Shown: positions 32,401-54,331 of the stretch, one piece after another
Layout: each line of letters begins with the position of its first letter
Numbering within the stretch: the first letter of the stretch is position 1
Assembly: GCA_903813345.2 (NCBI GenBank)
Contig: CAIIXF020000004.1
Coordinates: forward strand, 25,359,985-25,423,984
Length of the DNA: 64,000 nt
Origin: Owenia fusiformis
Taxonomy: Eukaryota > Annelida > Polychaeta > Sabellida > Oweniidae
Reading direction: 5' to 3'
Program-made: the position numbers and the translations under genes
Notes under the pieces: generated by a model
The model's input: the letters and a program-made list of their open reading frames with translations, nothing else
What the model was told of the DNA's origin: nothing
The model's database searches: none

Positions 32401-35400
32401 TGAAAAAGATATGACTTAAGCCCTGAGATTTTTTGTCCAATAAATGAAAATGTTCAAGTTGTATCGATATTTGAAGATGAAAATTTTGTTTGTTTGTTTG
32501 ATATTTGAAGATGAAAATTTTGTTTTTTGTTGATTTGTTTGTTTATTAACAAGTATGTATTGCTTCAATTACAGAGGAGGAACGATTTGAAATAGCAACT
32601 ATTCAACCAGGCTATGTATTGGGACCTATCATCCATGGAAGCATGTGCACCAGTATGGAGGTGAATATCTCATTAAATATGCGCATATTTTATAGTGTCT
32701 CTTAGTCCATATATGGTAAGGAGGATGTGCACCAGTAATAGTATAGAGGTGTTCCAGTATGGAGGTGAGTATCTCATTAAATATGCGCATATTTTATAGT
32801 GTCTCTTAGTCCATATATGGTAAGGAGGATGTGCACCAGTAATAGTATAGAGGTGTTCCAGTATGGAGGTGAGTATCTCATTAAATATGCGCATATTTTA
32901 TAGTGTCTCTTAGTCCATATATGGTAAGGAGGATGTACACCAGTAATAGTATAGAGGTGTTCCAGTATGGAGGTGAGTATCTCATTAAATATGCGCATAT
33001 TTTATAGTGTCTTTTAGTCCATATATGGTAAGAAGTATGTGCACCAGTATGGAGGTGAGTATCTCATTAAATATGCGCATATTTTATAGTGTCTTTTAGT
33101 CCATATATGGTAAGAAGTATGTGCACCAGTATGGAGGTGAGTATCTCATTAAATACGCACATATTTTATAGTGTCTTTTAGTCCATATATGGTAAGGAGG
33201 ATGTGCACCAGTAATAGTATAGAGGTGTTCCAGTATGGAGGTTAGTATCTCATTAAATATGCGCATATTTTATAGTGTCTTTTAGTCCATATATGGTAAG
33301 GAGGATGTGCACCAGTAATAGTATAGAGGTGTTCCAGTATGGAGGTGAGTATCTCATTAAATATGCGCATATTTTATAGTGTCTCTTAGTCCATATATGG
33401 TAAGGAGGATGTGCACTAGTAATAGTATAGAGGTGTTCCAGTATGGAGGTGAGTATCTCATTAAATATGCGCATATTTTATAGTGTCTCTTAGTCCATAT
33501 ATGGTAAGGAGGATGTGCACCAGTATGGAGGTGAGTATCTCATTAAATATGCGCATATTTTATGCTGTCTCTAATCCATATATGGTTAAAATTATTCAAG
33601 CAGATATTCATTCAAAGTATCAGCATGTAAGGTCACAATCATCTAAGCATCAAACAAAGAAAGGAGATCACCCGGAATTTAAAAATGAAACTTTGAGTAA
33701 AGATAAACCTGTCCATATAAAAATGAATGTCTAGAATCATCTTTTCATGAAGATTGTTTCATCTGTGAATTCTGGGTAATTCCATCTCTTCGTCAATCAC
33801 ATACATGTAGTGAAAGTTCAGATAAGGTAACAATTATCTGAATATCCAGTTGAGTGGGAATCACCCAGAATTCATAGATGAACGTCTAGAACCATCTTCA
33901 CAAGAAGATTTTTCATCTGTGAATTCTGGGTAATTTTTCCTCTTTATCAAACACATACATGTTGTGAAAATAGAGTTTCAGCATGTTTCAAACTTAATTT
34001 TTGCAGGTGCCCAAGAAGCTTCTGGAGCGAGCTATGCCAGGACTCCCCAAACTTAACTTTAACATTGTTGATGTCCGTGACGTAGCAGAAGCCCATATTA
34101 AGGCAATGACTGCACCAGAGGCTGCTGGGAAGAGACATATTGCCGTCACCCATAATATGTGGATCCGGGATATTGCATCTGTCATCGCAGAGGAGTACAG
34201 ACCACAAGGTATCTAATATAATCTAATAGTATATTAATAACAGGGTATCTAATATTATCTAATAGTATATTAATAACAGGGTATCTAATATTATCTAATA
34301 GTATATCAATAACAGGGTGCTAGACAAAATCGAAAATTTTGGTGAAAAATCATTTACACTCAGTTTAATTGGTGCATAACTTGTTTTTCATATTTTACAG
34401 TCAATAACTGAGCCAGAAGCCCTTCATTAGAGGAGCCCTGTGTTCTTTAATGTGCATCAAAACACAGACATAAAATTTCCTACACCCTGAATAACATAAT
34501 GCACAAAATAATTTGTCTGGATCAGGAAAAGAATCTGGTTACGACAGTTGTAATTAGTGTTGGCTTTGCCAATGAGCCGTATTGGGTGGACTAAAAGAAA
34601 AAATATGACAGCTTGACTGGAATTATATTTAGTTGCTAAAGAAAACATTTATACACTGTATCATACTATTCTTCCACACTATTTTACCACACTATTATGC
34701 CATACTTTTCTTCCACACTATTTTACCACACTATTATGCTAAACTATTCTTTCACACTATTTTACCACACTATTATGCCAAACTATTCTTCCACACTATT
34801 TTACCACACTATTATGCCATACTATTCTGCCACACTATTTTACCACACTATTATGCCATACTATTCTCCTACACTATTTTACCACACTAGTATGCCATAC
34901 TATTCTCCCACACTATTTTACCACACTATTATGCTAAACTATTCTTTCACACTATTTTACCACACTATTATGCTAAACTATTCTTTCACACTATTTTACA
35001 ACACTATTATGCCATACTATTCTTTCACACTATTTTACCACACTATTATGCCAAACTATTCTTCCACACTATTTTACCACACTATTATGCCATACTATTC
35101 TCCCACACTATTTTACCACACTATTATGCCATACTATTCTTCCACACTATTTTACCACACTATAATGCCATACTATTCTTCCACACTATTTTACCACACT
35201 ATTATGCCATACTATTCTCCCACACTATTTTACCACACTATTATGCTAAACTATTCTTCCACACTATTTTACCACATGATTATGCCATACTATTCTTCCA
35301 CACTATTTTACCACACTATAATGCCATACTATTCTTCCACACTATTTTACCACACTATAATGCCATACTATTCTCCCACACTATTTTACCACACTATTAT

Positions 35401-38400
35401 GCTAAACTATTCTTCCACACTATTTTACCACATGATTATGCCATACTATTCTTCCACACTATTTTACCACACTATAATGCCATACTATTCTTCCACACTA
35501 TTTTACCACACTATAATGCCATACTATTCTCCCACACTATTTTACCACACTATTATGCTAAACTATTCTTTCACACTATTTTACCACATGATTATGCCAT
35601 ACTATTCTTCCACACTATTTTACCACACTATAATGCCATACTATTCTTCCACACTATTTTACCACACTATAATGCCATACTATTCTCCCACACTATTTTA
35701 CCACACTATTATGTTAAACTATTCTTTCACACTATTTTACCACATGATTATGCCATACTATTCTGCCACACTATTTTACCACACTATTATGCCAAACTAT
35801 TCTTCCACACTATTATGCCATACTATTCTTCCACACTATTTTACCACACTATAATGCCATACTATTTCAGGCTACAATGTGCCTACTTGGCAGCTCCCCA
35901 ACTTTGCAGTTTGGGTCGGTGGAATGTTTGATAAAACTGTCAAATTGACAGTTCCCCAGCTCGGCAAACAGTACAAGCTAGAGAGTACTAAGGTATGGAG
36001 GTTTTACATTTTTTACTTGTCTTATTATTTATTTATCTACATGAAATGAATAGATACATGTATAGTAATGTTCATAAAAAATGTTCTAGAAATAAATTTG
36101 ATCTCAGGTCTTATAATTTAGAATCAGCATTTGGTCAAAAATCTGTCAAACCCAGAGGCCAAATTACATGGAACTATTTCTTTATTTTCTTTTAATAATT
36201 TTAAGATTTAAGCAATCTATTTAAATAGTAATGTAAAAAAGGCTATATACATCCAAGAAGATGTCAAGCCGATTGTGTTTTTGAGATTATATTATGTAAA
36301 TGAAAAGTATTGATGAATATAGAAAAAAAAATAATAATCATGAAATTAAAGGACCAGGTATAGTCTGGCAAGTGACTTTAAACTGTCATCTTTCACCATG
36401 ATTAGTTTCTAAATTTAAATATGACATTTCCCATTAACATAATATGTTATCTTTTGAGTAAATTCTCAAGAATAATAAAAATAGCAATCGAACAATTCTG
36501 AAAATCATAATTAGGGACCCCATTTCAAATTTTTTTTCAAAATGTTGAACCTATTTACTCAAAAGAGGATATTTTTCTGATATTAAAAGTGACAACATGG
36601 GGTCCTAACTGATACATTTTCAGAGAGTTGGATTGATATTTTTGTTATCATGGGGACTTTACTTAAAAGAAAACATATTGTTTCAATAAAAAACACGGTC
36701 TTTACGGCCAGAAAGTACTCATGGTGAAAGATATGACTGTCCAAAATCACTTGCCATACTATACCTGGTCCTTTACTCATGAAAATGTCATCATGTCAAA
36801 AATGATTTCCTAAGTCAAGGTCACAATGATATCCACACCAATAACTTATAATTTATGTCAAACTTCCAATATTATAAGAAATGTTCATACCATATGAGAA
36901 GTTAAAGGGCCAAGATGAAGGTTGCCTGGGGATTAGAAAATCTATAGAAAACTGATTTCTGAATGTTCACACTTACTATATATATTCCAGTTAAAAGAAG
37001 TGCTAGAGATCGAATCCAAAATTCAAAGGAGACCATATTAGATATGTGTAGCACTATGATAGGATTTTGGTGGGGCCTTTGGAGAAATTGACTTTTGAAT
37101 ATTCACACTTGACTACCTTATCTTTCAGTTAAAAGAAGTGCTAGGGATTGAACCCAAAGATTCAAAGGAGACCATATTAGATATGTGTAGCACTATGATA
37201 GCATTTTGGGTGGGGACTTTGTGAAAATTGACTTTTGAATATTCAAACTTGACTACCTTATCTTCCAGTTAAAAGAAGTGCTTGGGATCGAACCCAAAGA
37301 TTCAAAGGAGACCATATTAGATATGTGTAGCACTATGATTGAAGGAGGATGGGTAAAGAAACCAAAGCCCAAAAAGCAGAAGGCATCCAAGGCAAAGAAA
37401 GATGAAGAGGCAGTTGAGAATCACGTAGCAGAAGGATCAGGTGAGAAAAAATGTCATGATGATCATGTTGTCAAATGAGAAATATGGTTGAAAAGAGTGG
37501 AATTAGCAAGGAATGAAGTTAACAGAGATTTAGGCAACACTCTAAATTGTATAGAAATGCAAGAAAATCAGACACTTCATTCAAATTTTAGAGAGAAAAG
37601 AGAGGAATCAGCAAGGAATAAACTGAGCGGGCATGGAGTTAACACCCTAAAGTGTAGTTTAGAAATGCAAGAAAATGATGCAGTTCACTTAAATATAAAA
37701 TAGCTTGCTTAAAATAGACATGATTACCAAAGAGAAAATTCATGCTTGAAATGCAAACATCCATGTTATAAATGCAAATATTCATGCTAGAAATGCAAAT
37801 ATTCATGCACAAAATGTATTCATGGTAAAAATGCAATAACATGTATTCTAGTACCCATGCTACAAATGCAAATACCCATGCAAGCAGTAAATAATTCAAC
37901 ACATTAATTAAGTAGAAGTATTTCTTGTCATCAATCATTTTGTTAAATGTTCCAATTTTCTGTTGTAGCTGATGCCAAGAATGAAGAAGAAAAGAAAGAA
38001 GGCGAAGAGACGGAAGAGAAAAAAGAAGAAGGTGAGAATACAATTAAAGGAGCAATTTATTGTAAAATTTTTATATCAGAACACCTCTTTAATCTGAACA
38101 CCTCTCAATATGAACACTTTCTCCATCCCAATTTCCCAACCTCCCATTCAGTCCCATGTTAAAGAAAGCTTGAAATATGAACACTTTCTCCATCCCAATT
38201 TCCCAACCTCCAATTCAGTCCCATGTTAAAGAAACCTTGAAATATGAACACTTTCTCCATCCCAATTTCCCAAACTCCCATTCAGTCCCATGTTAGAGAA
38301 ACCTTGAAATATGAACACTTTCTCCATCCCAATTTCCCAACCTCCCATTCAGTCCCATGTTAAAGAAACCTTGAAATATGAACACTTTCTCCATCCCAAT

Positions 38401-40613
38401 TTCCCAACCTCCCATTCATTCCCATGTTAAATAAACCTTGAAATATGAACACTTTCTCCATCCCAATTTCCCAAACTCCCATTCAGTCCCATGTTTAAGA
38501 AAGCTTGAAATATGAACACTTTCTCCATCCCAATTTCCCAACCTCTCATTCAGTCCCATGTTAAAGAAACCTTGAAATATGAACACTTTCTCCATCCCAA
38601 TTCCCCAACCTCTCATTCAGTCCCATGTTAAAGAAACCTTGAAATATGAACACTTTCTCCATCCCAATTTCCCAACCTCCCATTCAGTCCCATGTTAAAG
38701 AAAGCTTGAAATATGAACACTTTCTCCATCCCAATTTCCCAAACTCCCATTCAGTCCCATGTTAGAGAAACCTTGAAATATGAACACTTTTTCCATCCCA
38801 ATTTCCCAACCTCCCATTCAGTCCCATGTTAAAGAAACCTTGAAATATGAACACTTTCTCCATCCCAATTTCCCAACCTCCCATTCAGTCCCATGTTAAA
38901 GAAACCTTGAAATATGAACACTTTCTCCATCCCAATTTCCCAAACTCCCATTCAGTCCCATGTTAGAGAAACCTTGAAATATGAACACCTTCTCCATCCC
39001 AATTTCCCAACCTCCCATTCAGTCCCATGTTAAAGAAACCTTGAAATATGAACACTTTCTCCATCCCAATTTCCAAACCTCCCATTCAGTCCCATGTTAA
39101 AGAAACCTTGAAATATGAACACTTTCTCCATCCCAATTTCCCAACCTCCCATTCAGTCCCATGTTAAAGAAACCTTGAAATATGAACACTTTCTCCATCC
39201 CAATTTCCAAACCTCCCATTCAGTCCCATGGTAAAGAAACCTTGAAATATGAACACTTTCTCCATCCCAATTTCCCAACCTCTCATTCAGTCCCATGTTA
39301 AAGAAACCTTGAAATATGAACGCTTTCTCCATCCCAATAGGATAGTTTCTAAATAGCAGAAAAATCAATGAAATCTCGTGCTGCCATCTTTTATTCAGCT
39401 TTTAACTCTGGCTAGAGCGCCATTCACTTACATGCTAAAATCTTGGAAAAGTGGCTTAATTTCATGATTTATCAAAGTGTGTTTGTTGAATCTGTATAAA
39501 ACTTGAATGATATACCACATGATGACCCTGTTTATGAACATGTTGTGATTAAACATGCTAATGTTGATTGACATACAAATAATCCACGGTTTTAAAGAAT
39601 TTTAGCATTGCATCTATGGACATTTGGCCCAACTTTTTAAATTGTCATAGAAAATTATTCAAATTACATAACTGTGTAAATCAAAGCTATTTTAGGAGAA
39701 AACATTCCACTGAATTCAAATATACCATTTAAAAGAAGGTAATGTAAGTCATTAGAGGTCTAATATGCAAGTCTCTTAAAATCTCACGAAAAACGAGATT
39801 TAGCGAGATTTCAAAAGCTATATGGAAACTATACTATTTCCCAACCTCCCATTCAGTCCCATGTTAAAGAAACCTTAGAATATGAACACTTTCTCCATCC
39901 CAATTTCCCAAACTCCCATTCAGTCCCATGTTAAAGAAACCTTGAAATATGAACACTTTCTCCATCCCAATTTCCCAACCTCCCATTCAGTCCCATGTTA
40001 AAGAAACTTTGAAATATGAACACTTTCTCCATCCCAATTTTCCAACCTCCCATTTAGTCCCATGTTAAAGAAACCTTGAAATATGAACACCTGCTAAGCT
40101 GAATATTTCGTTTGTCCCAGTAGCGTTTGGATTAGACAGGTTATATTATACTGTACTTTATGATAGTAAAAACAGTAAAAAGGCAAATGGAACAACTCCG
40201 TTTGTGGGAAAACTCCATTCGTGGGAAAACTCCGTTTGTGGAACACCTCTATACGTTGAACACTTTTCAGAGTCTCTTAAAGGGCTCGTAGCTGCAATTT
40301 TCATTTTAAATAACCCTAAAATATTCATTCCGATGCAACTGACCCAATCAACAGAACTTTGACACGTAAATAACATTATGATGAATTTAAAATATTTAGG
40401 GTTATTAAATTGTAATGTGTTAGTCGGTTAGAAAAGGTGAACACTTTAGAAAAGGTCTGGAAAAAGAAAATGATATTAAATTTTTTTCTTTCTGTGTGTG
40501 TTTTTGTAGAAAAACCAGCTGAGTCAGATGAAAAACCCACCGAAGAAAAACCTGAGGAAAAACCAGAAGAAAAATCAGAAGAGAAAACAGAGGAAAAAGC
40601 GGAAGAGAAATAA
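17251..40613 (+). CDS. Extended SDR oxidoreductase (dihydroflavonol/cinnamoyl-CoA reductase-like), nine exons, first exon missing
   Basis: Exons 17251-17452, 30731-30915, 31399-31533, 32575-32660, 34007-34208, 35871-35992, 37269-37440, 37969-38031 and 40510-40613 join in phase to about 423 codons ending in TAA. All junctions are GT-AG. The start has the NAD(P)-binding glycine motif VLVTGASGFIASHI. ASPFP and VVITSS follow, with the catalytic serine, then the YSKSK active site (YxxxK), and then IVDVRDVAEAHIKAM, which is diagnostic of the extended, DFR/CCR-like branch. Family members are NADPH-dependent reductases of carbonyl or CoA-ester substrates; the substrate here is unknown. The last 85 or so residues form a Lys/Glu-rich tail outside the family fold. 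Exon 1 supplies the start and the first base of the codon split at 17251; it was not found with confidence (a weak candidate is 9566-9575). Introns total about 22 kb and are full of repeats. Confidence 0.9.
18130..18640 (+). repeat. Tandem repeat, ~40-bp unit AACCAATCAACCAATTAGAA
   Basis: Units of AACCAATCAACCAATTAGAA followed by ACCCTTATCAACCCCTAG recur about 12 times with moderate divergence. Non-coding, inside the large intron. Confidence 0.9.
19240..19490 (-). mobile_element. MITE of the AGGCCCGTAGCCAG family, minus orientation
   Basis: The internal block TGGCCAAAAATTCTTTCAAA, CATGCAGTTTTTCAC and GAACCCCCCTGG is the reverse complement of the copies at 28567 and 29070. Its terminus TTGGCAAGTCATGGCTATTG is diverged. 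The left side has an expanded C/T tract (19263-19330) that produces spurious Pro-rich and Gly-rich frames. Confidence 0.75.
20168..21811 (+). mobile_element. Non-autonomous element with ATGTCCCCACC ends and ~162-bp internal repeats
   Basis: The left end TTTTATGTCCCCACC and right end GGTGGGGACATTTTG are inverted. Inside, a GTCC/GTCTGTCC microsatellite (20210-20265) is followed by seven monomers of about 162 bp, each with CCATTTTGGATTTTCCGTC (20742, 20904, 21065, 21228, 21389, 21552, 21713) and AAATTTTCAGGGATGATTC. No transposase is present. Such elements are frequent in mollusc genomes (from memory). Confidence 0.8.
22662..23797 (+). mobile_element. TIR element (~1.14 kb) with TATACTGAAAGTATAC subterminal repeats
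   Basis: ATCCCAGCCTATTGCCAGG at 22662 is matched by the inverse CCTGGCAATGGGCTGGGAT ending at 23797. Both ends are followed inward by arrays of ACTGAAAGTATACTGAA-type units (22690-22920 and 23420-23780). The 500-bp centre has no open frame. It is a non-autonomous DNA transposon; superfamily not assigned. Confidence 0.78.
23915..24050 (+). repeat. Dispersed ~105-bp repeat copy
   Basis: AATCGGCAAGGAATAAAAAA, then TTTCTAAATTGAATAAAAAT and GCAAGAAAATCAGACATTTC match the family described at 13588-13930. Confidence 0.8.
24373..24480 (+). repeat. Direct duplication containing AAAGGAGGATTG
   Basis: GAGAACCTTTTATTTCTATT plus AAAGGAGGATTGCTTCCCAT is repeated once about 53 bp later. GGAGGATTGGTTCCCA resembles the terminus of the element at 56704-57008. 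Confidence 0.75.
24690..25000 (+). repeat. Direct repeat block, ~120-bp units, paired with 25490-25770
   Basis: Units contain CAGTGAATAACCACCTTATA, GAGGAGAAGGACATGCATGA, CATGCATTTCATAGTATTTG and CATATTTGCCCTCC. The whole block recurs at 25490-25770 almost unchanged. The two blocks bracket the palindrome at 25326-25504. Confidence 0.88.
25040..25150 (+). repeat. ATCCCGTATCAG short tandem repeats
   Basis: AAATCCCGTATCAGATCCCG units occur about eight times within 110 bp. Non-coding. Confidence 0.85.
25326..25504. repeat. Long hairpin (foldback MITE-like)
   Basis: GGAATATGGATTTATTCC, then AAAATATGATATTGGCC, pairs with GGCCAATATCATATTTT and GGAATAAAATCCATATTCC around the centre ACTCGGGCTATCGCCCTCGG. 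Outer GGTTATT and AATAACC also pair, so nearly the whole 179 bp folds back. Confidence 0.85.
25490..25770 (+). repeat. Second copy of the 24690-25000 repeat block
   Basis: See 24690-25000. GAGGAGAAGGACATGCATGA and the following 200 bp are nearly identical between the two copies. Confidence 0.88.
26825..27065 (-). repeat. Dispersed ~105-bp repeat, two units, minus orientation
   Basis: TTTCTCTCTAAAATTTGA, TCTGATTTTCTTGCATTTCT, ACAATTTAGAGTGTTAACTA and TTATTCCTTGCTGATTCCAC are the reverse complement of the 13588-13930 units, present twice. Confidence 0.9.
27386..27519. repeat. Hairpin with GCACGAGCGAGCGTAGCGAG centre
   Basis: ATCCTATGATTTATGAGTGA, then GATTTTTATCCAC, pairs with GTGGATTAAAATCATATCAC and GTAAATCATAGGAT. 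The centre reads GATATCTGCACGAGCGAGCG with the matching CTCTCGCTACG-type arm. This resembles foldback MITEs with an ACGAGCGAGCG core known from several marine invertebrates (from memory). Confidence 0.82.
27527..27807. mobile_element. Possible MITE with TTATTCCATAGTTA ends
   Basis: TTATTCCATAGTTA (27527-27540) is exactly inverted at 27794-27807. The inside contains the palindrome CATACGACGTCGTATG. It lies directly after the preceding hairpin. Confidence 0.6.
28567..28776 (+). mobile_element. MITE, AGGCCCGTAGCCAG family, complete
   Basis: The left end AGGCCCGTAGCCAGGATTTG and right end CCCCTGGCTATGGGCCT are inverted. The inside carries CAAGGGGGCTCAG, TTTTGGCCAAAATCA, CTGCATGATTTTGAAAGAG and a long G tract at 28708-28735. 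No coding capacity. Other copies are at 19240, 29070, 31725, 43015 and 43700. Confidence 0.88.
28855..29000 (-). repeat. AACACCTCTCTCTAGTGAAC repeats
   Basis: CATTAAGAACACCTCTCTCT and AGTGAACACCTGTCTCTAGT alternate about five times. They resemble amplified ends of the pogo-like family (ACCTGT...GTGAACAC). Confidence 0.75.
29070..29235 (+). mobile_element. MITE, AGGCCTGTAGCCAG family, partial
   Basis: CAGGCCTGTAGCCAGGATTT, CAAGGGGGGTTCAC and TGCATGATTTTGAAAGA match the 28567 copy. The right end is shortened to GGCCAGGGGGCCTG. Confidence 0.8.
29965..30290 (+). repeat. Dispersed ~105-bp repeat, three units
   Basis: GTGGAATCAGCAAGAAATAA, AACACTCTAAATTGTATAGA and TTCAAATTTTAGAGAGAAAT recur three times, the middle unit preceded by AATGCAAAATAGAGTGGAAA. 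Confidence 0.9.
30731..30915 (+). CDS. Reductase exon 3
   Basis: The acceptor is TGTGTTCCAG and the donor ATAG/GTAAAT. The exon encodes AVKDCNYVIHTASPFPNQVV through KRVVITSSIATVIG. The phase-2 junction with the previous exon restores a Ser codon, giving WESAVKDC as expected in this family. Confidence 0.93.
31399..31533 (+). CDS. Reductase exon 4 with YxxxK active site
   Basis: It encodes GETGVDTTKTYTEEDW through DKLDGYSKSKTLAEKAAWDF to KELP. Tyr and Lys of YSKSK are the catalytic pair. The acceptor is TAATGTAG and the donor CCAG/GTAATG. Confidence 0.93.
31715..32260 (-). mobile_element. AGGCCCGTAGCCAG-family MITE split by a second MITE
   Basis: CTTGGCCAAAAATTCTCCAA and GAGCACTTTTCAATTAATTT (left), then CCCCCTTGAATTTTTTTTCA and GCTACAGTCCTG (right), are the two parts of a minus-orientation copy like 19240-19490. 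The interruption is exactly the element at 31802-32198. Confidence 0.7.
31802..32198. mobile_element. MITE with 29-bp perfect inverted ends and a duplicated core
   Basis: TCAAAGGACGATTCTCGGTT plus TGGAGAAC at the left is exactly inverted at 32171-32198. The inside carries two direct copies of a segment of about 190 bp (GAGCATTATCCCTGCTTC at about 31850 and 32037; TTTAATTTGGGTAATATT at about 31928 and 32115). It is nested inside an older MITE, which gives a relative age. Confidence 0.88.
32575..32660 (+). CDS. Reductase exon 5, end duplicated into a donor array
   Basis: It encodes EERFEIATIQPGYVLGPII then HGSMCTSME and ends in phase 0 at ATGGAG/GTGAATATC. The exon end plus donor is the start of the tandem array that follows. 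The first donor must be used for a full-length protein, because reading into the intron meets a TAG after 14 codons. Confidence 0.92.
32661..33580 (+). repeat. 5'-splice-site array: ~104-bp and ~83-bp units copying exon end plus donor
   Basis: Each unit contains the exon end ATGTGCACCAGTATGGAG or CCAGTATGGAG followed by GTGAGTATCTCATTAAATA and TTAGTCCATATATGGTAAG. Donor copies follow the real one (32660/32661) near 32768, 32872, 32976, 33056, 33140, 33241, 33345, 33449 and 33532. Most copies read GTGAGT, a better consensus than the real GTGAAT. Nearly identical 73-codon frames on the minus strand are by-products. Confidence 0.93.
34007..34208 (+). CDS. Reductase exon 6
   Basis: It encodes VPKKLLERAMPGLPKLNF, then NIVDVRDVAEAHIKAM and GKRHIAVTHNMWIRDIASVI. 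The acceptor is AATTTTTGCAG and the donor CACAAG/GTATCT. It ends in phase 1. Confidence 0.94.
34209..34318 (+). repeat. Three 36-bp copies of a 5' splice site region
   Basis: GTATCTAATATAATCTAATA plus GTATATTAATAACAGG recurs three times, starting exactly at the donor CACAAG/GTATCT. Each later unit restarts as CAGG/GTATCTAAT, again resembling exon-end plus donor. Confidence 0.88.
34660..35866 (+). repeat. 39-bp minisatellite ending at a 3' splice site
   Basis: About 30 copies of CACACTATTTTACCACACTA plus TTATGCCATACTATTCTCC run up to CATACTATTTCAG, the acceptor of the exon at 35871. Since 39 is a multiple of three and the unit lacks stops, a 385-codon plus-strand frame results. It is not a gene. 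Confidence 0.93.
35871..35992 (+). CDS. Reductase exon 7
   Basis: It encodes YNVPTWQLPNFAVWVGGMFD and on to QLGKQYKLESTK. Its acceptor CTATTTCAG directly abuts the 39-bp minisatellite. It ends in phase 0 at AAG/GTATGG. Confidence 0.93.
36349..36773. mobile_element. MITE with ~54-bp TIRs and TA target duplication
   Basis: AAGGACCAGGTATAGTCTGG at the left matches the inverse CCATACTATACCTGGTCCTT at the right, and CTTTCACCATGA is also mirrored. TA flanks both sides (36347-36348 and 36774-36775), as for Tc1/mariner-type or related elements. An inner inverted pair around TTTTGAGTAAAT also exists. Non-coding. Confidence 0.88.
36991..37067 (+). pseudogene. Decayed duplicate of reductase exon 8, copy 1
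   Basis: After TATATATTCCAG the bases TTAAAAGAAGTGCTAGAGAT through ATGTGTAGCACTATGAT copy the start of exon 8. A one-base loss near 37020 shifts the frame. It diverges from the real exon after the ATGAT, so it lacks the exon's own donor. Confidence 0.88.
37129..37202 (+). pseudogene. Duplicate of reductase exon 8, copy 2
   Basis: After ATCTTTCAG the copy stays in frame with exon 8 for 24 codons (LKEVLGIEPKDSKETILDMC), then reads into intron sequence and a TGA a few codons later. It keeps a good acceptor, so it could act as a decoy 3' splice site. Copy spacing is 138 and 140 bp. Confidence 0.88.
37269..37440 (+). CDS. Reductase exon 8 (intact third copy)
   Basis: It encodes LKEVLGIEPKDSKETILDMC to IEGGWVKKPKPKK, then a basic stretch and AVENHVAEGSG. 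It joins in phase 0 to exon 7. It is the last and only intact copy of an acceptor-plus-exon-start triplication (copies at 36991 and 37129). The conserved SDR part ends at about GGWVKK and the charged tail begins here. Confidence 0.93.
37490..37700 (+). repeat. Dispersed ~105-bp repeat, two units in an intron
   Basis: GTGGAATTAGCAAGGAATGA, CAACACTCTAAATTGTATAG and TTCAAATTTTAGAGAGAAAA match the 13588 family. They start about 50 bp after the 37440 donor. Confidence 0.88.
37969..38031 (+). CDS. Reductase exon 9, charged tail
   Basis: This 63-bp exon after TTCTGTTGTAG encodes ADAKNEEEKKEGEETEEKKE, almost entirely Lys and Glu, and ends GAAG/GTGAGA in phase 1. Confidence 0.85.
38085..40100 (+). 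repeat. 67-bp minisatellite, about 22 units, interrupted by a MITE
   Basis: Units read AATATGAACACTTTCTCCAT, CCCAATTTCCCAACCTCCCA, TTCAGTCCCATGTTAAAGAA and ACCTTGA. The array is preceded by GAACACCTCTTTAATCTGAA and followed by GAACACCTGCTAAGCTGAA and GACAGGTTATATTATACTGT. It therefore appears to have grown inside a pogo-like MITE. It fills most of the last intron. Confidence 0.93.
39339..39835. mobile_element. 497-bp MITE inserted in the 67-bp array
   Basis: The array is broken after ATCCCAAT and resumes at TTTCCCAACC. The insert begins AGGATAGTTTC and ends GAAACTATACT, which are inverted with one mismatch. The flanks are consistent with a dinucleotide (AT or TA) target duplication. No open frame. 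Confidence 0.85.
40510..40613 (+). CDS. Reductase exon 10, charged tail and stop
   Basis: After TTTTTGTAG the exon encodes EKPAESDEKPTEEKPEEKPE and further EEK repeats, ending in TAA at 40611-40613. The short in-frame EEKPEEK-type repeats suggest tail growth by codon-level duplication. Confidence 0.88.
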
Positions 40614-42709
40614 TAGCCATGGCAACCCTTTTTGTTTCCATGAGAATTCCATATTTGATGTGACCAATTTTAGAAAGACACTGTTCGCTGGTTGTCATTT
40701 AGGCTAGCAATTTGTTAAAGAAACACCATTACTCAGAAGTACCATACCGTGTGTTAGATCGATAAAACAGTGGGCATATTTACAGAAAAGAAATCTCATA
40801 TTAATACTACTCGAACAATAGGCACTATTTTGTATTAACGAAAACTGGTAAAATGTGATTTAATCAGCCTATATCAGTTACATATGTAGCAACTGGTAAG
40901 TGAGCACTAGTGTGTTTTTCATATTAGATGCAGAGACTTAATAGAACTTTGAGATCATCAGATAATTACTTTGTGCAATCCAATTACTTTATTTGGCTAG
41001 TACTTCCATATTAGGCCATGCTTACCATATATGGTCAACACTACCATATTTGGCAAACGAATCTCAATTCCACTCAATCTGAGTCGAAAGAACATCCATG
41101 GGATGAAAATGCATGTTATTAAATTAGAGGCCAGTGTAGTTGTATGTTTTAAATATATAACAAAGTCAGAAGTCCGGGGGAAACAAAAATGTACAGACTT
41201 ATGTACGAGTTTGTAGGTAACACCATTAATTGTATCGAAATGAAATATACATTTGAGATATGGAGTGAAATATGTGAAATGCTTGGAATAAGGGTCCACT
41301 AACATTGACATACAAACACGTTCAATTGGAGGACTAACTTTGAATGGGTTAATGGGTATGTCCATATTTGGATATTGAAATGTGGCCATGATAGCTTTTA
41401 CAACTAAAATCCAGTAATTTGTACATTTTATACAATTTTGGACATTTTTGTACAAATATATTCCCAAATAAGTTTATTTTCAAACTGAAATTTTTCAAAA
41501 AAGCACTTTCTGTTTTAGGTCAATAGCAGTAAAAGTGAAAGATAGGTCAGTGGGTATCATTAGGCATGTTAGCATTTGATAGAAATATATGGGATTAAAG
41601 GGGTTAATTTCAGTATGCCCATATTTGGACATTGTTTTACGTGGTAGGTCAGCTGATTTGACGTCAGTGTATGCATATATTATGTCATATGCATTCGAAT
41701 TATTATCCTATGAATGTTCAATTATATTTTCTTATTTATTATTTTCTTATTTATTATTGTTGTACTTAAGACTAGAGAACCACCAAAAGTTGTCAACTAG
41801 AGATAGTTTCCATAGTAACTTAGACTACTAATAGTAACTAGTATATAAATCTGTTGCCATAGCAATCAAATTACTATTGCAATCAAATTGCTTGCCAATA
41901 TTGTATTTACAAATGCCATGATATGCTTATATATATGTCAATGTTTTGTAAATATAAACCCATGTTTTTATTATCATTGTGTGAACGTAAATGTGCAATG
42001 GGTTCCAGTATGGGACACCCTGTATTAGTGTAACACTTTGTATTAATAGGATATACTGCATTTGAAAGACATCGTATTTATGAGATACTCCATATTTATT
42101 GCATCCCTGTATTAAGGATATTTCAAATTCATGGGATACCCTGTATTAGGGATATGCATATCCCATCACAGTTATCGTAACTATGAGTGCTCTTCGCTAA
42201 GGTGATTTGGACGTTGCCATGGAAACTTACTGTTAACACCACTTTGAGCGAACAGAAATATTATCTCATTAGCATAGTTTCACAAATTCACTTGTAAGCC
42301 CCCTCCCATTTAAAAAACACTGTGGGATGGAGAACAGGAGGAAACAAGTGAGTGTCTGTGTAAAACTGCATAGTTTAATGTATTTTAAATGACCTATAGA
42401 TTCATCATAATTACCCTGAAAATTCAATATATTTTGATACATATAATCATATGATATCATAAAATAAGACAATAGCTCACTATAACTTCTTGGATTTTGT
42501 AAAAAGTGTAACGCCATGTCACAGTCCATATTCAGAAATATGTAACACTGCATATGAAATATGTAACACTGTTCACTGAGTATTATTGTTCGCATAATCT
42601 GAAAAACTTTGTATTGATATGTATATTATATGTTATTACACGTAAACTGCAAAAATACCATTCCGTGAGTGAGTAAATGTCTCATTGACCATGCCTATTT
42701 CACTGTATT

Positions 42710-42840
42710 TTTCTCTAAAATTTGAATGAATTGCCAAATTTTGGGGTATTTCTATACGATTTTTTGTGTTGACTACACACCACATGTTTATTCATTCCAT
42801 GCTCATTTACACTCAATGTTGAGTATAAAAATGGTTGCCA
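42710..42840 (-). repeat. Dispersed ~105-bp repeat, degenerate minus copy
   Basis: TTTTTCTCTAAAATTTGAAT, GGTATTTCTATACGATTTTT and TTTATTCATTCCATGCTCAT are the diverged reverse complement of the 13588 family. Confidence 0.7.
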
Positions 42841-43014
42841 TGACATGAGTGATATGTACATGTGGTACATGTTCAAAACATAGTGTTACATAAATCGCTA
42901 ACCCTCCCCCTTAGTCTTTTTGACTTGTTATGATGGGGAAATAGAGAATAAAGGGTGGGAGGATACTTGATGTAAGATCAACCTCATCCCCTTCTCAGTA
43001 TGTGTGTTCTCTAC

Positions 43015-43699: not shown

Positions 43700-43802
43700 A
43701 TAGGCCCGCAGCCAGCTTTTGCCAAGGGAGGGGCTCACTGTTAAAAAAGATCCAGGGGGATTTTGAACCCCTAGAGCCCCCTCTGGCTACATGCCTGTAT
43801 TA
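43700..43802 (+). mobile_element. MITE, TAGGCCCGCAGCCAG family, short copy
   Basis: TAGGCCCGCAGCCAGCTTTT and CCCTCTGGCTACATGCCTGT are inverted ends around a GCCAAGGGAGGGGCTCACTG core. Confidence 0.78.
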
Positions 43803-45004: not shown

Positions 45005-45155
45005 TAAAATGCAAAATAGAGTGGAAAAGAGTGGAATCAGGAAGGAATAAAGTAAATGGGCATGTAGTTAACACTCTAAATTGTATGGAAATGCAAGAAA
45101 ATAATACAGTTCAATCAAATTTTTAAGAGAAATGAGTGGAATTAGCAAGGAATAA
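45005..45155 (+). repeat. Dispersed ~105-bp repeat copy
   Basis: AAAATGCAAAATAGAGTGGA, GTGGAATCAGGAAGGAATAA and AACACTCTAAATTGTATGGA match the 13588 family; a second partial unit follows. Confidence 0.88.
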
Positions 45156-46004
45156 AAGAGCAAAAGTGATGAAAACCATACATGACCACCATGAATATTT
45201 TCCCCTGGGCTGAATTAAAATACTATTTATTTTGTATTTCTTAACTGCTTGACTTTTATATTTGCATGTAAATTTTAAGATTAGTTCTTCTTGCATTGAT
45301 GTACATGAATTTCTAGAAGATCTTCCACAATCTAATATTCTAAACTTGCCATACACAAAATGTAGTTCTAAAGTACATGTATGAGGTTTATGGGAATTAG
45401 GGGTATTAATGAAGTAATGAAGAAGGAATTGAAAACAGTACCAAACTAGATTTCAAGATTTCTAGTAAATACCCCAAATTCCTATTTAAATACACAATAT
45501 CCCAAAAATGAAAATGAATCAAGGGTATGGGTGAGTCCCTAACTGTATTTTGGACTGACCCATAATTGCCTAGAACATTGATAAACCCCTCCATCCAGAT
45601 TTACCCATTTTGGGTCAAAGAACCAAAACCACTTCTATGAACTAATTTGCATAAAGTTTATATTTTTATTATTTAGAATTTTGTAATGCAATGCAAACAA
45701 TGGTCCAAAATAGGGTCATAGTGACCTTGGGCAAACGCAGTATTATTAAAATGTCAGATATTTTTTATTATCATTATTTCTAATTAGTTTGTAATTATAC
45801 TATATATGTATATCCTACTATTTATACTATTATACTATCCGTGACGTGTTTTGTAATGAAAAAATGGCCAATTGTTTAAATCTCTAATGGTTTCAGTTTA
45901 GGGCACATTCACAAAAAATGGCTCAAAAAACAAATATTCCATTCCTGTATATGGCCATTTACATAACTGGACAGGTTATTTTGGATATGCCTTAGGCTGT
46001 TTTT

Positions 46005-46085
46005 AGTCAATCATGGTAAACCATGCCGTCTCATTTCTTCTCAGCCTTGTAATCATCCTAGTGAAACAGAAAGATGTCATGAGTG
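46005..46085 (+). repeat. Dispersed repeat shared with 16105-16185
   Basis: AAACCATGCCGTCTCATTTC, TTCTCAGCC and GTGAAACAGAAAGATG correspond to 16120-16175. Confidence 0.6.
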
Positions 46086-46629
46086 TCAACTGGTAAATGT
46101 CTATAGTCGTACAAACAAAGAGTTTTTAAACACTTGGCCATTTATTGTACATTGATCATATAACCCAATTACTCACAAAAGCAACAGTGGACATGTGGTT
46201 TAAATTCTTAAAATGAACATTTTATACTTCTACTGCAGTACATTTTTTAACAATTAGAGAAAATGACAAAATGCTCCTTAAATATATTTATTATTTTATT
46301 TCATGAAAAATAGCTGACATGATTCTTGTCATGACATTATTCAAGAAATAAATTAGATATATTTTTGATTTAGAAATGAATTAAAACATAAATTGTAGAT
46401 AATTTAGGATTTTTAAGAATTTAAATTTTTAAATTTGCTTAACAGTTCTGTACAGTAAAATGTTTTGTACATTCTATGGATGTATGCTATGTTATGTGTG
46501 TCAAAAATATGTGTCCACTATAACATCACATGATATATGTGTCATACAAGAAATATAATTGTGTACCATACATAATAAGTGTTGTTGTATGAAATAAAAT
46601 AAGTGTACCAAAAACTGTGTTCTGTGAGT

Positions 46630-48422
46630 TTGGTTTAAAAATTAAGGCTACTCTGTACAGTATCTACACAGTATTTTACTTTTGAAATTATATAAAAAAA
46701 ATTTGTCATGGATTTCCCTCATTTCAAACACTTGCATTTTATAGTCAGAAGAAGTGAGTAGCTCCCATAATTCTTTCATATTCTATAGTATTCGGGGATT
46801 CCCCATTATACGATCTCCAATCAAATTGTGATCAAGGATGTGATCAAGTGCTTTCTCAGAGCCGCGTATGTGCAAAGTAAAATTTGAAATCGTTGAAATG
46901 GCGTTTATTTCAGTTTTAAAATCAGTTCAACATCATTTCAAAACTCAGTAATCCTATTGAAGTTACTCTATCCAAACTTACAGAGAATACTCATAAAACA
47001 CAAGCTAATATTAAGAGATCCATTTCAAAGGCCTGTTTTTAAAATTGTTTATCGAACATGCCAATATGAAAGGTGATCTTTGGGAATTCCCCCCCCCCTG
47101 AATTTTAGTTCAGTTTGTTATTATTAAGTCACCATGGTGATGGTGACATATTGTTATAGTTTCCAACTATTTCTGAACAGTTCGGTGCTTGGTGTTATGG
47201 CATCTGTAAAAATGGTGTCTGTAACAAATGGCAGGTGGTGACATTTTGCATATTAATGCATTGTCGTTAAATGGGATGTTTAATTTTTCAATTTTTTTCT
47301 GTTTATACAAGATTTGACTGATGGGAAAGAATTACCCTATCCATGGCTGAAAGAAGTGCATGTATAGCAAAAAGTAAGCATCTTAATATATATGAGAAAA
47401 TCTAGCCAACCAGCACTAATCATTGTCATTAATATCAAATAATAAAATCATACAATATATATATTAATTTCATATTATATATTATAGTAAAAGTCAGTTT
47501 CAAATATAGCATAAAAACATTGGAAATTACAAAAAACGGATACAACAAAAAGTCTTGCATCAAGACAATGGAACACCCCTTTGGTAAAATATGGATTGAT
47601 CCATTCAAGCAATTTGGAAGAGTTTACTTTGTGTCAAACAATTTAAAAGGGGTGGTTTTCCAGAGACTTGACGCAAGACAAACAAAACTGAACTAGAGTA
47701 GAAATATAACAAACTATACATAAATGGTTATAAAAACATATGACTACAAATAATATTGGACAATATATTGAACATATTGAACATAAAGGTGATTAAACCC
47801 TATTTGAAATGGATATAAGATTCAGACATTGTATTCCATAACCAAACCTATGAACCATCCCGCAATGAGCGTGATTGTCCTGCTTTGATCTAAATATGGC
47901 CTATTTGTGGGATCATGCAAATCCATTGAATGTCCCGCAAAATTTAGGTCTACGAATGATAAATCTCCCTCGGGAAAATTTTCAGGGGGGTGACAGGTTT
48001 GCATAACTTGCATGCATATTATAACAATCCCTGTATGGAGGGTGCAAATCATGTGATTTAAACTACAAGGGGCGTTCAATAAATACTGATACAAATGATC
48101 TTAATTCCATATTTGTAACTACAAGGGTCAATCAATAAATACTAATCTAAATTCCATGTTTGTAAAGGAATCATGCATAATGTTTTGGAATGTATTTAAA
48201 TGACTTTTGCACAAGCTTCCTTGTTATTCCAATATCAGATTTTCGTTCTAAAATTCACATAAATAAATATTCTGTCATTACCCTATAGTCTGGGCTGTTA
48301 AGTGACTTGTATTTAAGTTGTTAACAACATGCATGTTTACATTATTTCTTTCAGATTCCACTTTTCCACTGGATTTTTGATTTTAAAGCATGACCACTCT
48401 CTCTGTCTCCAAGTTATCACAG
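46630..48422. other. Intergenic stretch, no gene recognised
   Basis: It lies between the convergent genes. A GTCACCATGGTGATGGTGAC palindromic block at 47130-47150 and two AAGGG(G)CGTTCAATAAATACT-type motifs at 48066-48140 hint at eroded transposon ends. Nothing is coding. Confidence 0.5.
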
Positions 48423-48571
48423 TTATAAAGCACTCTTTCCTGAAAAAAGTTTCTCAACTGTTGCACCTGCAACGAGTCCATCTTTCCATCTCGCAGGTAT
48501 CACTTTATTTTGATGTGTTGATGCAGCACCTAGCAAAGCACCTAGTGCTGCCCCCCTGTGGCAATTTTCAC
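48423..48571 (-). CDS. Glycohydrolase exon 8 and stop
   Basis: It encodes ENCHRGAALGALLGAASTHQ, NKVIPARWKDGLVAGATVEK and LFSGKSAL, then TAA. The acceptor is ATTGACAG. The split Gly codon at the junction gives NANCGGENCHRG. Confidence 0.93.
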
Positions 48572-51500
48572 CTGTCAATCAAAGTTACGACCATATAAGG
48601 GAGGTTAATAAATACGAACAAAGCAGTAACAAGAAAAATGTAACAACTGTGACAGTCTCTAGTACTGATTACAAAAATGGTTGCTGTAACAAAATTGAGA
48701 AAATCGACAGTGAGATAAAAAACAGTAGTTATACAGTATACAGGCTTTTACACAGGGTTTTTCTCCCTCTAATAGTACATGAAGATCTTACCTCCACAGT
48801 TCGCATTCATAAGAATCCCATCTTCAAAGTCATCGTGACATGCTTGTGCTAGAAACAACATGGAGGACATGGCGCCCTCTATATAGCAGGCTGATCCAAG
48901 AGTTGACGTCGCAGATTGGTAGACTTGTAACCGCGATTCTGAATCTTTCATGTAACTGAAAAAATCGACTCAATGAAATAAATCAATGATGAAATAATAG
49001 GCAGAGTAATTTAATAATCAAAATGGATAAAGTACAGGGTGAATCAAAAAGTATGAGTATAACTCCAACAAATGTTAATAACTCAGTCATCCAGCATGGG
49101 TTTAAAGTTGTATTTGCCTCCTTTTTCAATTCTAATGTCACATATTTGGACATTTCAGCATCTCCTATTCCACTATACTTTTTCAGATAACTCTAAATTT
49201 GCATTTTGTCAAAAATAAAATTCGGATTCTCAGGGAAACACATACTCGTTTCCCAATTTGATTTTCAATCACACTGGTATCAGCTGTGGACAACTTTTCT
49301 ATCCGAAAAACAAACAAATCATCTCATTGGTCAGACTCCTTTTAAACCATAGTTAATGGCCCTTAATTGCTTATTAATGAGGTTGACAGCTAAACTTCTA
49401 TTTACCTAATACATAAGAATTAGCATAATGTAGGCTGGATTATCAGTTATCACACGTTTCAGCATGTGATACAGGAAATATTCCACGAAAGGTAATACTG
49501 TATCATCCACGAAAGCGAAGCTTGAGTGGTGATACATTGTTACCCGAGTGGAATATTTCCTGTATCACATAAGCTGACACGTGTGATGACGATTTTATCA
49601 CATGTCTAGGAATTTTGAAGCATTTTGATTTGGTCAGTTATGATTGTGTTCAGTACCCCGTGTACTTCTGGTAACTATTATAATTTTTGATTTCGCTTTG
49701 AAACAATATGACGTCATACCGTTGTATTCGTACTTGTTTGTGAAATAGTATGACGTCATATTGTTTTCCTTAGCTAGAAAGAATATGATCAGTGACGTCA
49801 CATCGTTGCTATTGATCATCACTGGTTGCCTCTAGTAACGTGTGAGACGGCCGTGTGAGACGGGAAAACTCACACGGTAATCAACCAATCAGATTACTGG
49901 AATTTTACAGAGCATGTGATAAAAGATGATATCTCATTCATCAGAATCCTCAATCTATGACAAATTAATAGGGTTTTGGGCAGAAATTTCAGCCTGATAT
50001 TCCAAGGTATGAAAACATCATACCTTGGAAATCCAAGATGAGGGAAACATATCACTTCTTCTTCCTAAAGGTTTACCTTACCCCTTCGCTGCCTCTGTTA
50101 ATTTCAATATAAGGTCGCGTTTTCTAGCTCCACCTAACATTTTGTCAGAGGCTGTCTGCAAGGCTGCTGTCTTCAAATCATTGCCGTTTATTGCACCGTG
50201 TAACAATCTAAACATATAAATGTAGAATTGAAGTATTTGTTCAAGATTTAGCTGATTTATTATTTTCCATGATTTAAGATAGAGTGCATTAGTATTTGTT
50301 CAGTATGTAGAACATATTTGCAATATACAGTGTACACCTTGCATATAACATCACATAGCCTTGCATACACTACATACCTTGCAAAGCCTTGCATACACTG
50401 CATACCTTGCATACAACTCCAAATAGCTTTGCACACACTACATACCTTGCATTTAACTCAATATAACCTTGCATATACCTTGCATACACTACATACCTTG
50501 CATATAACATCACATAGCCTTGCATAAACTACATACCTTGCATTTAACTCAACATAGCCTTGCATACACTACATACCTTGCATTTAACTCAACATAGCCT
50601 TGCATATACTACATAGCTTGCATACACAACATACCTTGCATATAACTCCACATAGCCTTGCATACACTACATACCTTGCATTTAACTCAACATAGCCTTG
50701 CATATACTACATACCTTGCATATAACTCCATATAACCTTGCATACACTGCATGTACATACCTTGCATATAACTCCACATAGCCTTGCATACACTACATAC
50801 CTTGCATTTAACTCAACATAGCCTTGCATACACAACATACCTTGCATATAACTCCATATAACCTTGCATACACTGCATGTACATACCTTGCATACACTAC
50901 ATACCTTGCATATAACTCCACATAGCCTTGCATACACAACATACCTTGCATATAACTCCACATAGCCTTGCATACACAACATACCTTGCATATAACTCCA
51001 TATAGCCTTGCATACACTGCATGTACATACCTTGCATACACTACATACCTTGCATATAACTCCACTTAGCCTTGCATACACAACATACCTTGCATATAAC
51101 TCCATATAGCCTTGCATACACAACATACCTTGCATATAACTCCACCAGCCTTGCATACAATACATACCTTGCATATAACTCCACATAGCCTTGCATATAC
51201 TACATACCTTGCATACACAACATACCTTGCATATAACTCCATATAACCTTGCATACACTGCATGTACATACCTTGCATACACTACATACCTTGCATACAC
51301 TACATACCTTGCATATAACTCCACATAGCCTTGCATACACAACATACCTTGCATATAACTCCATATAGCCTTGCATACAGTGCATGTACATACCTTGCAT
51401 ACACTACATACCTTGCAAATAACATAGTCAAGCATACAATTTATACCTTGCATATAGCTCAACATAGCCTTGCATATACTACATACCTTGCATACACAAC

Positions 51501-54331
51501 ATACCTTGCATATAACTCCACATAGCCTTGCATAAAATACATACCTTGCATATAACTCCACATAGCCTAGCATACAATACATACCTTGCATTTAACTCCA
51601 CATAGCCTTGCATACACAACATACCTTGCATATAACTCCATATAGCCTTGCATACACAACATACCTTGCATATAACTCCATATAACCTTGCATACACTGC
51701 ATGTACATACCTTGCATACACTACATACCTTGCATATAACTCCACATAGCCTTGCATACACAACATACCTTGCATATAACTCCACATAGCCTTGCATACA
51801 CAACATACCTTGCATATAACTCCATATAACCTTGCATACACTGCATGTACATACCTTGCATACACTACATACCTTGCATATAACTCCACATAGCCTTGCA
51901 TACACAACATACCTTGCATATAACTCCATATAGCCTTGCATACACTGCATGTACATACCTTGCATACACTACATACCTTGCATATAACATAGTCTAGCAT
52001 ACAATTTATGCCTTGCATATAGCTCAACATAGCCTAGCATACAAATGATATCATGCAAATAACTCCACATAGCCTTGCATACAATACATACCTTGCATAT
52101 AACTCCACATAACCTTGCATACTAGGATTTGGATGTGTCAACTTCAAAAACTCCAGTGTGGCTTCTACACATGTTTCTACATCTTCGTTGGAATAATGTA
52201 GCACCCATGGAATTGCAATGACTAGACCACCTATGGAAGATATTTGTGAATCTTCTCCTTCCAGGCATTTTCTTTGATATCTGGAGAAAAACGTCATGGG
52301 TTTCATAAGCAGCTTGCAAAAATTGATTTTGTACAAATAGTTTTTACCAAAATTGATTGCTGTTTTGAGGAATTTATAATTTCAGATCTGCCAATCTAAA
52401 ATCAAAAAATTGCGGTAGATTGTTTTACAGGAAAAATTCTATGGGAAAATATGATATGGTATTGTCATTTTTAACGGATAACTAAAATTTGAAGCATATG
52501 TTTTACTGTACCTTGCTTCAGCCCATGTGATTAAATTCTCCCCAGATTTAGGAGGATCGTCTTCCATTATCCAATCTTTGAAGAACAACCTGTGAAACGA
52601 CTCAGCATATGTGTCATTGTGACTACCTGTAACATAGCAGAACACAATTTAATTGAACAGCACAACCAAATTTCAGAACACAATGGCACAACCAAATTTT
52701 AGAACACAATGGCAAAACCTAAGTTGAAAAAACAATGACATAACCAACTTTCGAAGCACATTGTTTGACACAATCTTATTCAAAAAATCATTGGTACAGC
52801 TCAACACAATGTTTGGCGCAACCGATTTAATAACACACTTTTGACACATCCAACTAAAGAATGACACAACCCATTTTCATAATACACTTGTATATTGAAA
52901 TGCTAGCACAATCCATCCCTATAACAGAATGTTTAGCCCATTCCATTTTCATAACACAATTTGGCACAACCAAGTTCATAACTCTGGCACAACCAAGTTA
53001 GTTCAACACAATGGCTTGAATACCAAGGTTCGCAGCTATTCGTACAAAAACAGTCACCTATTAAAAATCGCATACCTGGAGTGGTCATGAATTTAACATA
53101 GTCCTCAAGTACTGCCTTCCTTAGTTCCCTTGTGTCCATGTTTCTGTCTGGATCCTGTTTTTGAAGTAGTGAGAAAACACGGAGTGCAACCACAGAGTTC
53201 AATGTGTTTTCTCCAGCCTGCATACCTGAAATCATGAAGGGAGTCCATGATTTAAATCATGAAGTAAAGTGGAAAAGTCTTGCTTAATGCATTTAATGCT
53301 GAATGCTGGATACAAAAAACCAACTACTATAATAAACAAGGGATTAACATGACAAAATGTCACCACCTTGTAAGTTATTGCAAATTGTTACAACTCCAAA
53401 TGCCAACCACCAACAGCTGTCACAAAAAAGTTGGAGACAATAACAAAATATCACCACTTTTGGTTGTGACATAATTATGCATCCACTCCTTGGTGGTGCC
53501 ATAAAAATGCAGATTTACCTTGGTGATAATGCGTAGATCTGTCTCCACTTGTCCAGTATTTCAACTTATCATGAAGGATGACGTCACCAACGATACGTTT
53601 TGACTTGGAGTGCCAACCAGTCCTACCACTGCCATCTATAATACATTGTATTGCATAATATTGTACTCTGTATTGAATTGTTCTGTATCACATTGCATTG
53701 CATTGTATTGTATAACAGTACATTACATTGTATTACATTACAGTGTATTGCAATGTATTGTATTGTATCAATTTGCATTGTATGGTATTGTATTACAGTG
53801 CAGTGTATTGCATTGTATTGTAATATATTATAAGTTATTGAATGCTTTGAAGTGCAATACAGGATATATTCTGCTGGAGAAATTCTGTATTGTATTATAC
53901 TGTATTGCATCGCATTGAGTGCAGTGCAGTACAATGTAGTGTATTGTATTGTATTGCATTGCATTGTATTGTATTGTATTGTTTTCCACATTTTAATCAA
54001 ACTCCTCCCAGATAATACCATATTTTGATTTACCAGAGGCATTTCACTATTGCAAGTTTTACTGTACTTACCTATTGTATTGCACTGTATTGTATCACAT
54101 TGTATTGTATTGTATTCCACTTTTGCAGGTTTTACTGTACTTACCTACTGCAGAAAGAGTTAAGATGCTCTGTGGATGTTTTTTATTGGCTGCTCTGTAC
54201 CCTGTGAGCCAACCTCCGTAGCCGCTCTTGATGCTAGATGGGTTATAGTACCAATGTACGGGCATACTCGTTGCATCTGAGATCAACATCCCCCATAGTG
54301 CATTCTCTTTGGATAGCTCTTTGTTGGTCAT
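48423..54331 (-). CDS. ADP-ribosylglycohydrolase-family protein, complete, eight exons, 398 aa
   Basis: Minus-strand exons 54331-54145, 53635-53519, 53225-53076, 52626-52512, 52280-52092, 50207-50082, 48955-48792 and 48571-48423 join in phase through GT-AG introns into 399 codons including TAA. Family marks, in order: ALWGMLISDATSMPVHWYY (N-terminal glycohydrolase block), GDVILHDKL, HYHQGMQAGENTLN, TTPGSHNDTYAESFHR, LGSACYIEGAM, and NANCGGENCHRGAALGALLGA. This is the all-helical DraG/ARH/J1-crystallin fold in the subgroup with SHNDTY and HYHQG. Classical members remove ADP-ribose from proteins with Mg ions. Here the usual C-terminal GGDxDT metal motif is replaced by GGENCHRG, so the same activity cannot be assumed. 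No signal peptide or membrane segment is seen, suggesting a cytosolic protein. The start ATG at 54331 precedes the conserved block by only 11 residues, as usual in the family. Confidence 0.92.
48792..48955 (-). CDS. Glycohydrolase exon 7
   Basis: It encodes YMKDSESRLQVYQSATSTLG, SACYIEGAMSSMLFLAQACH and DDFEDGILMNANCG. The acceptor is GATTTTTTCAG and the donor GTGGAG/GTAAGA. Confidence 0.94.
49440..49605. repeat. Foldback element in glycohydrolase intron 6
   Basis: GTGATACAGGAAATATTCCA (left) pairs with GGAATATTTCCTGTATCAC (right), and TTATCACACGTTTCAGC with GCTGACACGTGTGATGA. The centre carries CCACGAAAGCGAAGCTTGAG. A GTGTGAGACGG duplication follows at 49841-49863. Confidence 0.8.
50082..50207 (-). 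CDS. Glycohydrolase exon 6
   Basis: It encodes LLHGAINGNDLKTAALQTAS, DKMLGGARKRDLILKLTEAA and K. The acceptor is ATATGTTTAG and the donor AAGGG/GTAAGG, ending in phase 2. Confidence 0.9.
50310..52091 (-). repeat. 5'-splice-site array in glycohydrolase intron 5 (~1.8 kb)
   Basis: On the minus strand, units of about 35-50 bp combine GGTTATATGGAGTTATATGC, AAGGTATGTTGTGTATGC and AAGGCTATGTGGAGT. They copy the exon-5 end (coding GYVELYAR) plus the donor GCAAG/GTATGT dozens of times. The array starts inside exon 5 itself and ends about 100 bp before the next acceptor. Open frames of up to 294 codons on the minus strand are repeat artefacts. Confidence 0.93.
52092..52280 (-). CDS. Glycohydrolase exon 5, end reused in a donor array
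   Basis: It encodes YQRKCLEGEDSQISSIGGLV, IAIPWVLHYSNEDVETCVEA and FLKLTHPNPSMQGYVELYAR. The donor ATGCAAG/GTATGT at 52092/52091 was chosen because it alone gives the phase needed by the next exon (phase 2, continuing LLHGAINGND). An earlier GTATGC at 52122 would bring a stop in the next exon. The final coding bases plus donor are the seed of the array at 50310-52091. Confidence 0.85.
52512..52626 (-). CDS. Glycohydrolase exon 4
   Basis: It encodes SHNDTYAESFHRLFFKDWIM to NLITWAEA and ends in phase 2 at GCAAG/GTACAG. Confidence 0.93.
53076..53225 (-). CDS. Glycohydrolase exon 3
   Basis: It encodes MQAGENTLNSVVALRVFSLL through LEDYVKFMTTP. The split Gly codons at both ends restore HYHQGMQAGE and TTPGSHND. 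Confidence 0.94.
53519..53635 (-). CDS. Glycohydrolase exon 2
   Basis: It encodes GSGRTGWHSKSKRIVGDVIL, HDKLKYWTSGDRSTHYHQ. The acceptor is TATTATAG and the donor CCAAG/GTAAAT. Confidence 0.93.
53637..54120 (-). repeat. TTGTA/TTGCA pentanucleotide array in glycohydrolase intron 1
   Basis: ATTGTATTGTATTGCATTGC-type repeats fill most of intron 1. CAAGTTTTACTGTACTTACC at 54054-54073 repeats CAGGTTTTACTGTACTTACC at 54126-54145, which is the real donor in minus orientation. CAGTAAAACCTGC is also a pogo-like terminus, so part of the intron may derive from such a MITE. Confidence 0.85.
54145..54331 (-). CDS. Glycohydrolase exon 1 with start codon
   Basis: It encodes MTNKELSKENALWGMLISDA, then TSMPVHWYYNPSSIKSGYGG and AANKKHPQSILTLSAV. 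The donor is GCAGTAG/GTAAGT, ending in phase 1. The donor region recurs about 73 bp into the intron. Confidence 0.93.

Follow-up and report, generated by a model that had tools for sequence, protein, structure and literature searches.

Tandem duplications across exon-intron borders in two genes of the annelid Owenia fusiformis and in sampled gene families of its genome

The stretch of Owenia fusiformis DNA analyzed here (64,000 bases, hereafter the window) carries two genes on opposite strands. Gene 1, on the plus strand, encodes a dihydroflavonol-4-reductase-like epimerase (PF01370, E 6.1e-23; PDB 4qtz, E 7.9e-43), and gene 2, on the minus strand, encodes an ADP-ribosylglycohydrolase (PF03747, E 1.6e-33). 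The window is rich in tandem repeats: 49 arrays, merged by hand from a tandem-repeat listing, total 15,770 bases (24.6%), and for 1663 of 8698 noncoding 24-mers (19%), a copy lies downstream at a distance of no more than 500 bp. A 162-bp unit is repeated 6.5 times inside the gene 1 intron at 17453-30730 (20738-21784), one gene 1 intron holds two arrays of a single 67-bp unit about 500 bp apart (38107-39338 and 39836-40090), and a 12/36-bp repeat at 40542-40611, which probably lies in a gene 1 exon, codes for a tail rich in EEKP. By eye, a unit of ~105 bp recurs as arrays or fragments at 13594-13911, 26829-27037, and 37490-37670; because these lie in separate places and in both orientations, the unit has the look of a dispersed repeat, in contrast to the border arrays described below. 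At 34640-35854 and 50707-52033, open frames of as much as 404 aa extend through tandem arrays; they look like by-products of the repeat units and not genes.

A border was scored as duplicated when the 24-mer across it had a near copy on the intron side, within 500 bp and with at most 4 mismatches. Twenty-nine borders of genes 1 and 2 were tested; the first exon of gene 1 was not found and hence is not represented among them, and two gene 2 sites also lie outside the 29, a donor near 50082 and the acceptor preceding 48792, which were ambiguous or lacked a scoring site. Five borders proved to be duplicated, namely plus-strand donors 32660 (5 copies of the border 24-mer) and 34208 (2 copies), plus-strand acceptor 37268 (1 copy), and minus-strand donors 52092 (9 copies) and 54145 (1 copy). 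An earlier note on this DNA had listed four introns with tandem copies of their own splice site, at 32660, 34208, 52092, and 37269 (the first exon base, given here as acceptor 37268); all four are duplicated, and its statement that both genes are affected is borne out, with minus-strand donor 54145 added as a fifth border.

In gene 1, the exon at 32575..32660 (+) ends at donor 32660/32661 (GAG/GTGAAT, donor score 9.0) and overlaps an array of 104- and 82-bp units (32638..33621, +), seen through its border 24-mer copies, in which 11-23 bp of exon end are repeated together with the donor and intron sequence; the array holds nine more copies of GGAG/GTGA or GGAG/GTTA. The 36-bp array at 34204..34318 (+, 3.2 copies), likewise marked by border copies, starts with 5 bp of exon and donor 34208. 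Farther downstream, a 140-bp array (36947..37339, +, 2.8 copies), present both in the repeat listing and as a border copy, lies across acceptor 37268, where the match at an offset of 140 takes in 71 exonic and 64 intronic bp. Two other arrays had been described in the earlier note as abutting or approaching acceptors, and they do so, as the 39-bp array at 34662..35866 (+, 30.9 copies) stops 4 bp before acceptor 35870 and the array at 16916..17193 (+) falls 57 bp short of acceptor 17250, but neither of these borders has a copy. In gene 2, an array of ~40-bp units (50325..52122, -), also recognized by its border copies, occupies almost an entire intron, and its unit is similar to the final 31 bp of the exon followed by donor 52092. 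Donor 54145 (TAG/GTAAGTACAGTAAAAC) is copied at an offset of 73 bp with 3 exonic and 31 intronic bp (54041..54147, -). Tandem units thus span borders at both donors and acceptors, as they also do in the sampled genes discussed below.

The residues HGSMCTSME of the exon at 32575..32660 align without gaps to dihydroflavonol reductase 4qtz, and at 52092 the end of the exon gives a weak alignment to ADP-ribosylglycohydrolase 2cwc, ungapped there (E 0.022); 4qtz is a plant protein and 2cwc a bacterial one. Because the exonic part of the unit is conserved coding sequence at 32660 and aligns, if weakly, to a protein at 52092, the direction of copying in these two arrays was from the exon border into the array and not the reverse. 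Position 52114 was considered as an alternative donor for the gene 2 exon and is disfavored, since both the reading phase and the weak 2cwc alignment favor 52092.

The positions at which the duplications end bear on their origin. The earlier note had described arrays that start at junctions; however, in 14 cases (5 in the window and, from the genome sample, 9 of 10, leaving out the weaker L090, and L065, which is outside the ten), the part of the duplicated unit that lies in the exon is 3 to 106 bp long. Exonic sequence makes up between 0.04 and 1 of the unit, and these shares agree with a uniform distribution (KS P 0.99, n = 14), with the smallest ones thinned in the sample, where cases are detected only if 12 exonic bases are shared (with mismatches). 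Because the ends are spread evenly, whereas a mechanism that recognizes the splice site should place them there, such a mechanism is unsupported.

Whether the arrays of the window lie at borders more often than by chance was addressed by permuting the placement of 30 gene-span arrays (one coding array was omitted). Six of the 30 touch a border (±10 bp) and three have an edge within 10 bp. Under free placement, the means were 4.4 touching (P 0.26) and 0.95 edges (P 0.074); with exon overlap limited to 75 bp, they fell to 1.9 (P 0.011) and 0.70 (P 0.029), and with a limit of 30 bp to 0.94 (P 0.0002) and 0.53 (P 0.016). As the P value shifts with the exon-overlap cap, the verdict on chance hangs on the null model. 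Border copies in the window (5/29) showed no excess over the intron interior (5-9/29) when all 24-mers served as the control. The same 5/29 exceeds the proportion in the genome sample (10/388; Fisher P 0.002), a comparison in which the window had been picked for its striking look and is array-rich.

The genome sample comprised 388 borders from three gene families, 278 from myosin-head and SNF matches (sample 1) and 110 from kinase matches; P450 and AMP-binding matches fell outside it. Borders were called beside protein-family matches by a splice matrix, the starting frequencies of which were re-estimated from the sample. Of 199 myosin and SNF matches, 21 contained at least two stops and were excluded; we used 73 of 144 kinase matches (length ≤300, at most one stop) and discarded borders with a score of <5 or at >30 bp from the match end, with looser and stricter cuts also run. 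The sample 1 test and the kinase replicate were fixed in advance, although the replicate was run with a flank of 320 (270 planned), and its own-intron control, at distance 140 and x 36-144, departed from its wording. Duplications were found at 10 of the 388 borders (2.6%, 95% interval 1.2-4.7%). In sample 1, 8 of 278 borders were copied (2.9%) versus 2.6% (donors) and 3.3% (acceptors) of the intronic control 24-mers, while the copy count along the intron ranged from 3 to 12 of 278 up to x = 400; with this first control, built from all intronic 24-mers, there was no excess at the 278 borders over the intron interior.

This control is too high, because arrays grow by added copies and each one is counted. 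In a first-copy control, each array was counted once; it is post hoc, having been brought in after the first flat result. Across 18 settings with this control, sample 1 gave 7-15 observed duplications against 3.1-6.0 expected (ratio 1.78-2.79, P 0.001-0.079), and a myosin alternative-exon cluster supplied 3 of the 15 at the loosest setting. Both samples together gave 10/388 against 5.92 expected at ≤4 mismatches (ratio 1.69, P 0.079), with ratios of 1.69 (P 0.091) at ≤2 and 1.58 (P 0.075) at ≤6 mismatches. A bootstrap resampling loci, with control positions ending at the next matched exon, yielded 2.04 (0.86-4.52) at ≤4 and 2.23 (0.83-5.62) at ≤2 mismatches for all loci. Without the myosin cluster loci L088 and L089, a post hoc choice that raises the ratio, these values became 2.52 (1.07-5.19) and 2.88 (1.11-6.60), and other score and distance cuts, run only without these two loci, gave ratios of 1.96-2.63 (P 0.006-0.070). 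The two loci themselves (G000:C9:37986009-37994334) hold twelve tandem matches to one and the same part of the myosin head, within profile positions 18-84, and are probably a large alternative-exon cluster. Over all versions, the first-copy excess is 1.6- to 2.9-fold, and its intervals either reach 1 or narrowly leave it out; if real, the excess over the intron interior is perhaps about two-fold. The genome-wide comparison proposed in the earlier note, run here on the sample, therefore gave no excess in its planned form and a weak one under the post hoc control. Strong anchoring to splice sites was rejected, given the flat planned test, the uniform ends, and bootstrap upper limits of 4.5- to 6.6-fold.

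The excess raises the question of whether borders are mild hotspots of tandem duplication, at ~2 to 2.5-fold, through features such as border-linked chromatin, polymerase pausing, or R-loops, without the splice site being the breakpoint. The bootstrap ratios both with and without the myosin cluster loci and the 18 sample 1 settings point that way, as do the restricted-placement permutations and the window itself, where 5 borders were duplicated against 2.05 expected under the first-copy control (P 0.057). The kinase replicate speaks both ways: measured against their own introns at distance 140, the kinase genes show 2 duplications versus 0.11, 0.64, and 1.51 expected at ≤2, 4, and 6 mismatches, but against the sample 1 control the same 2/110 compare with 1.68 expected. 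Together with the flat planned test of sample 1 and a first-copy control defined only after the first result, this makes us regard mild hotspots as rather unlikely, though well worth keeping in view. Furthermore, constraint on one border copy may keep old duplications recognizable for longer, which could imitate an excess or account for part of it.

Many copies retain splice sites, and this raises the question of whether they have a function. Within the gene 2 array (50325..52122), 43 further donor-like sites equal or exceed the true donor 52092 in score, and 9 do so relative to donor 32660 in the gene 1 array (32638..33621); a copy with an unchanged site score is kept in 9 of the 11 listed sampled duplications. 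Selection could favor such donor copies as decoys or alternative donors in splicing, and these counts would fit it. However, the donor bases of the gene 2 array match the consensus hardly better than the unit as a whole (0.89 versus a unit mean of 0.865), so that the consensus-match comparison gives no clear sign of selection on donor copies there; recency alone keeps sites in young copies; and the array at 34204..34318 holds no donor-like copy within 2 bits of true donor 34208. We therefore consider selected donor copies highly improbable. The 43 donor-like sites make this one gene 2 intron a natural test of how the spliceosome chooses a donor among dozens of equals. An assembly artifact, arising from uncollapsed haplotypes or misassembled repeats, seems the least credible source of the pattern, as substitutions and unit variants distinguish the copies from one another and comparable duplications lie at independent loci on several contigs.

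Taken together, the border arrays are probably ordinary tandem duplications that happened to cross exon-intron borders and were later amplified, their extra copies being tolerated. This could come about as follows: (i) the ends of a tandem duplication would fall on either side of a border; (ii) the duplicated segment would amplify like any minisatellite, by slippage or unequal exchange; (iii) the exon-proximal splice site would presumably remain the site used; and (iv) the extra copies would be intronic and, in all likelihood, neutral, tolerated because the copy with the intact exon keeps splicing working. The array-rich region, with 25% of the window in arrays, is best read as the setting for chance border crossing. 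Of the two explanations offered in the earlier note, tolerance of arrays that keep a functional site at their edge fits best. The other, a mechanism that duplicates DNA across borders, is right insofar as duplications repeatedly cross them (10/388 sampled), but a border-seeking mechanism is not supported by the ends or by the planned test. We think it doubtful, if conceivable, that borders are mild but general duplication hotspots in animals, with such arrays at a few percent of borders in some genomes and, in their duplicated, working splice sites, a standing supply from which new introns and exons could arise.

The pattern, which the earlier note had left without a name, has one in amphioxus: border minisatellites, called "mirages", are described in the globin, Adh3, TnC, and PGBD5 genes (PMC3087553, PMC3902484). 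The amphioxus mirages share with the arrays described here tandem copies across borders, at donors and acceptors alike, in units of ~10 to 160 bp, and splice signals kept in many copies (PMC3087553, PMC3902484). According to PMC3087553, splicing in amphioxus seems undisturbed, the haplotypes of one globin gene vary in repeat number, and a role of mirages in intron gain is proposed. Unlike in amphioxus, for which RNA and haplotype length variation were reported, the present account draws on genome sequence; its host is an annelid, and the frequency of the structure at borders has been measured (10/388). Searches for GFP and COX1 as taxonomic markers gave no match, and the controls of the GFP search gave none either. 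Among the matches listed by our literature search, none concerned mirages outside amphioxus genes. A structure that already has a name is thus seen in another genome, at a frequency high enough to be of consequence. Because a copy often keeps a complete splice site (9/11 listed duplications), border arrays supply material for intron gain. With the potato RdRp case of intron gain by tandem duplication (PMC4974935) they share a duplication that crosses an intron-exon border, although the copies here appear to stay intronic. A search with 32575-32800, from one of the five border arrays, returned nine matches, none of them away from its own locus, in a scan that passes over simple repeats and words of very high frequency. 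With introners (PMC9860276), the arrays share repeated sequences tied to introns, but here the copies are local tandem repeats.
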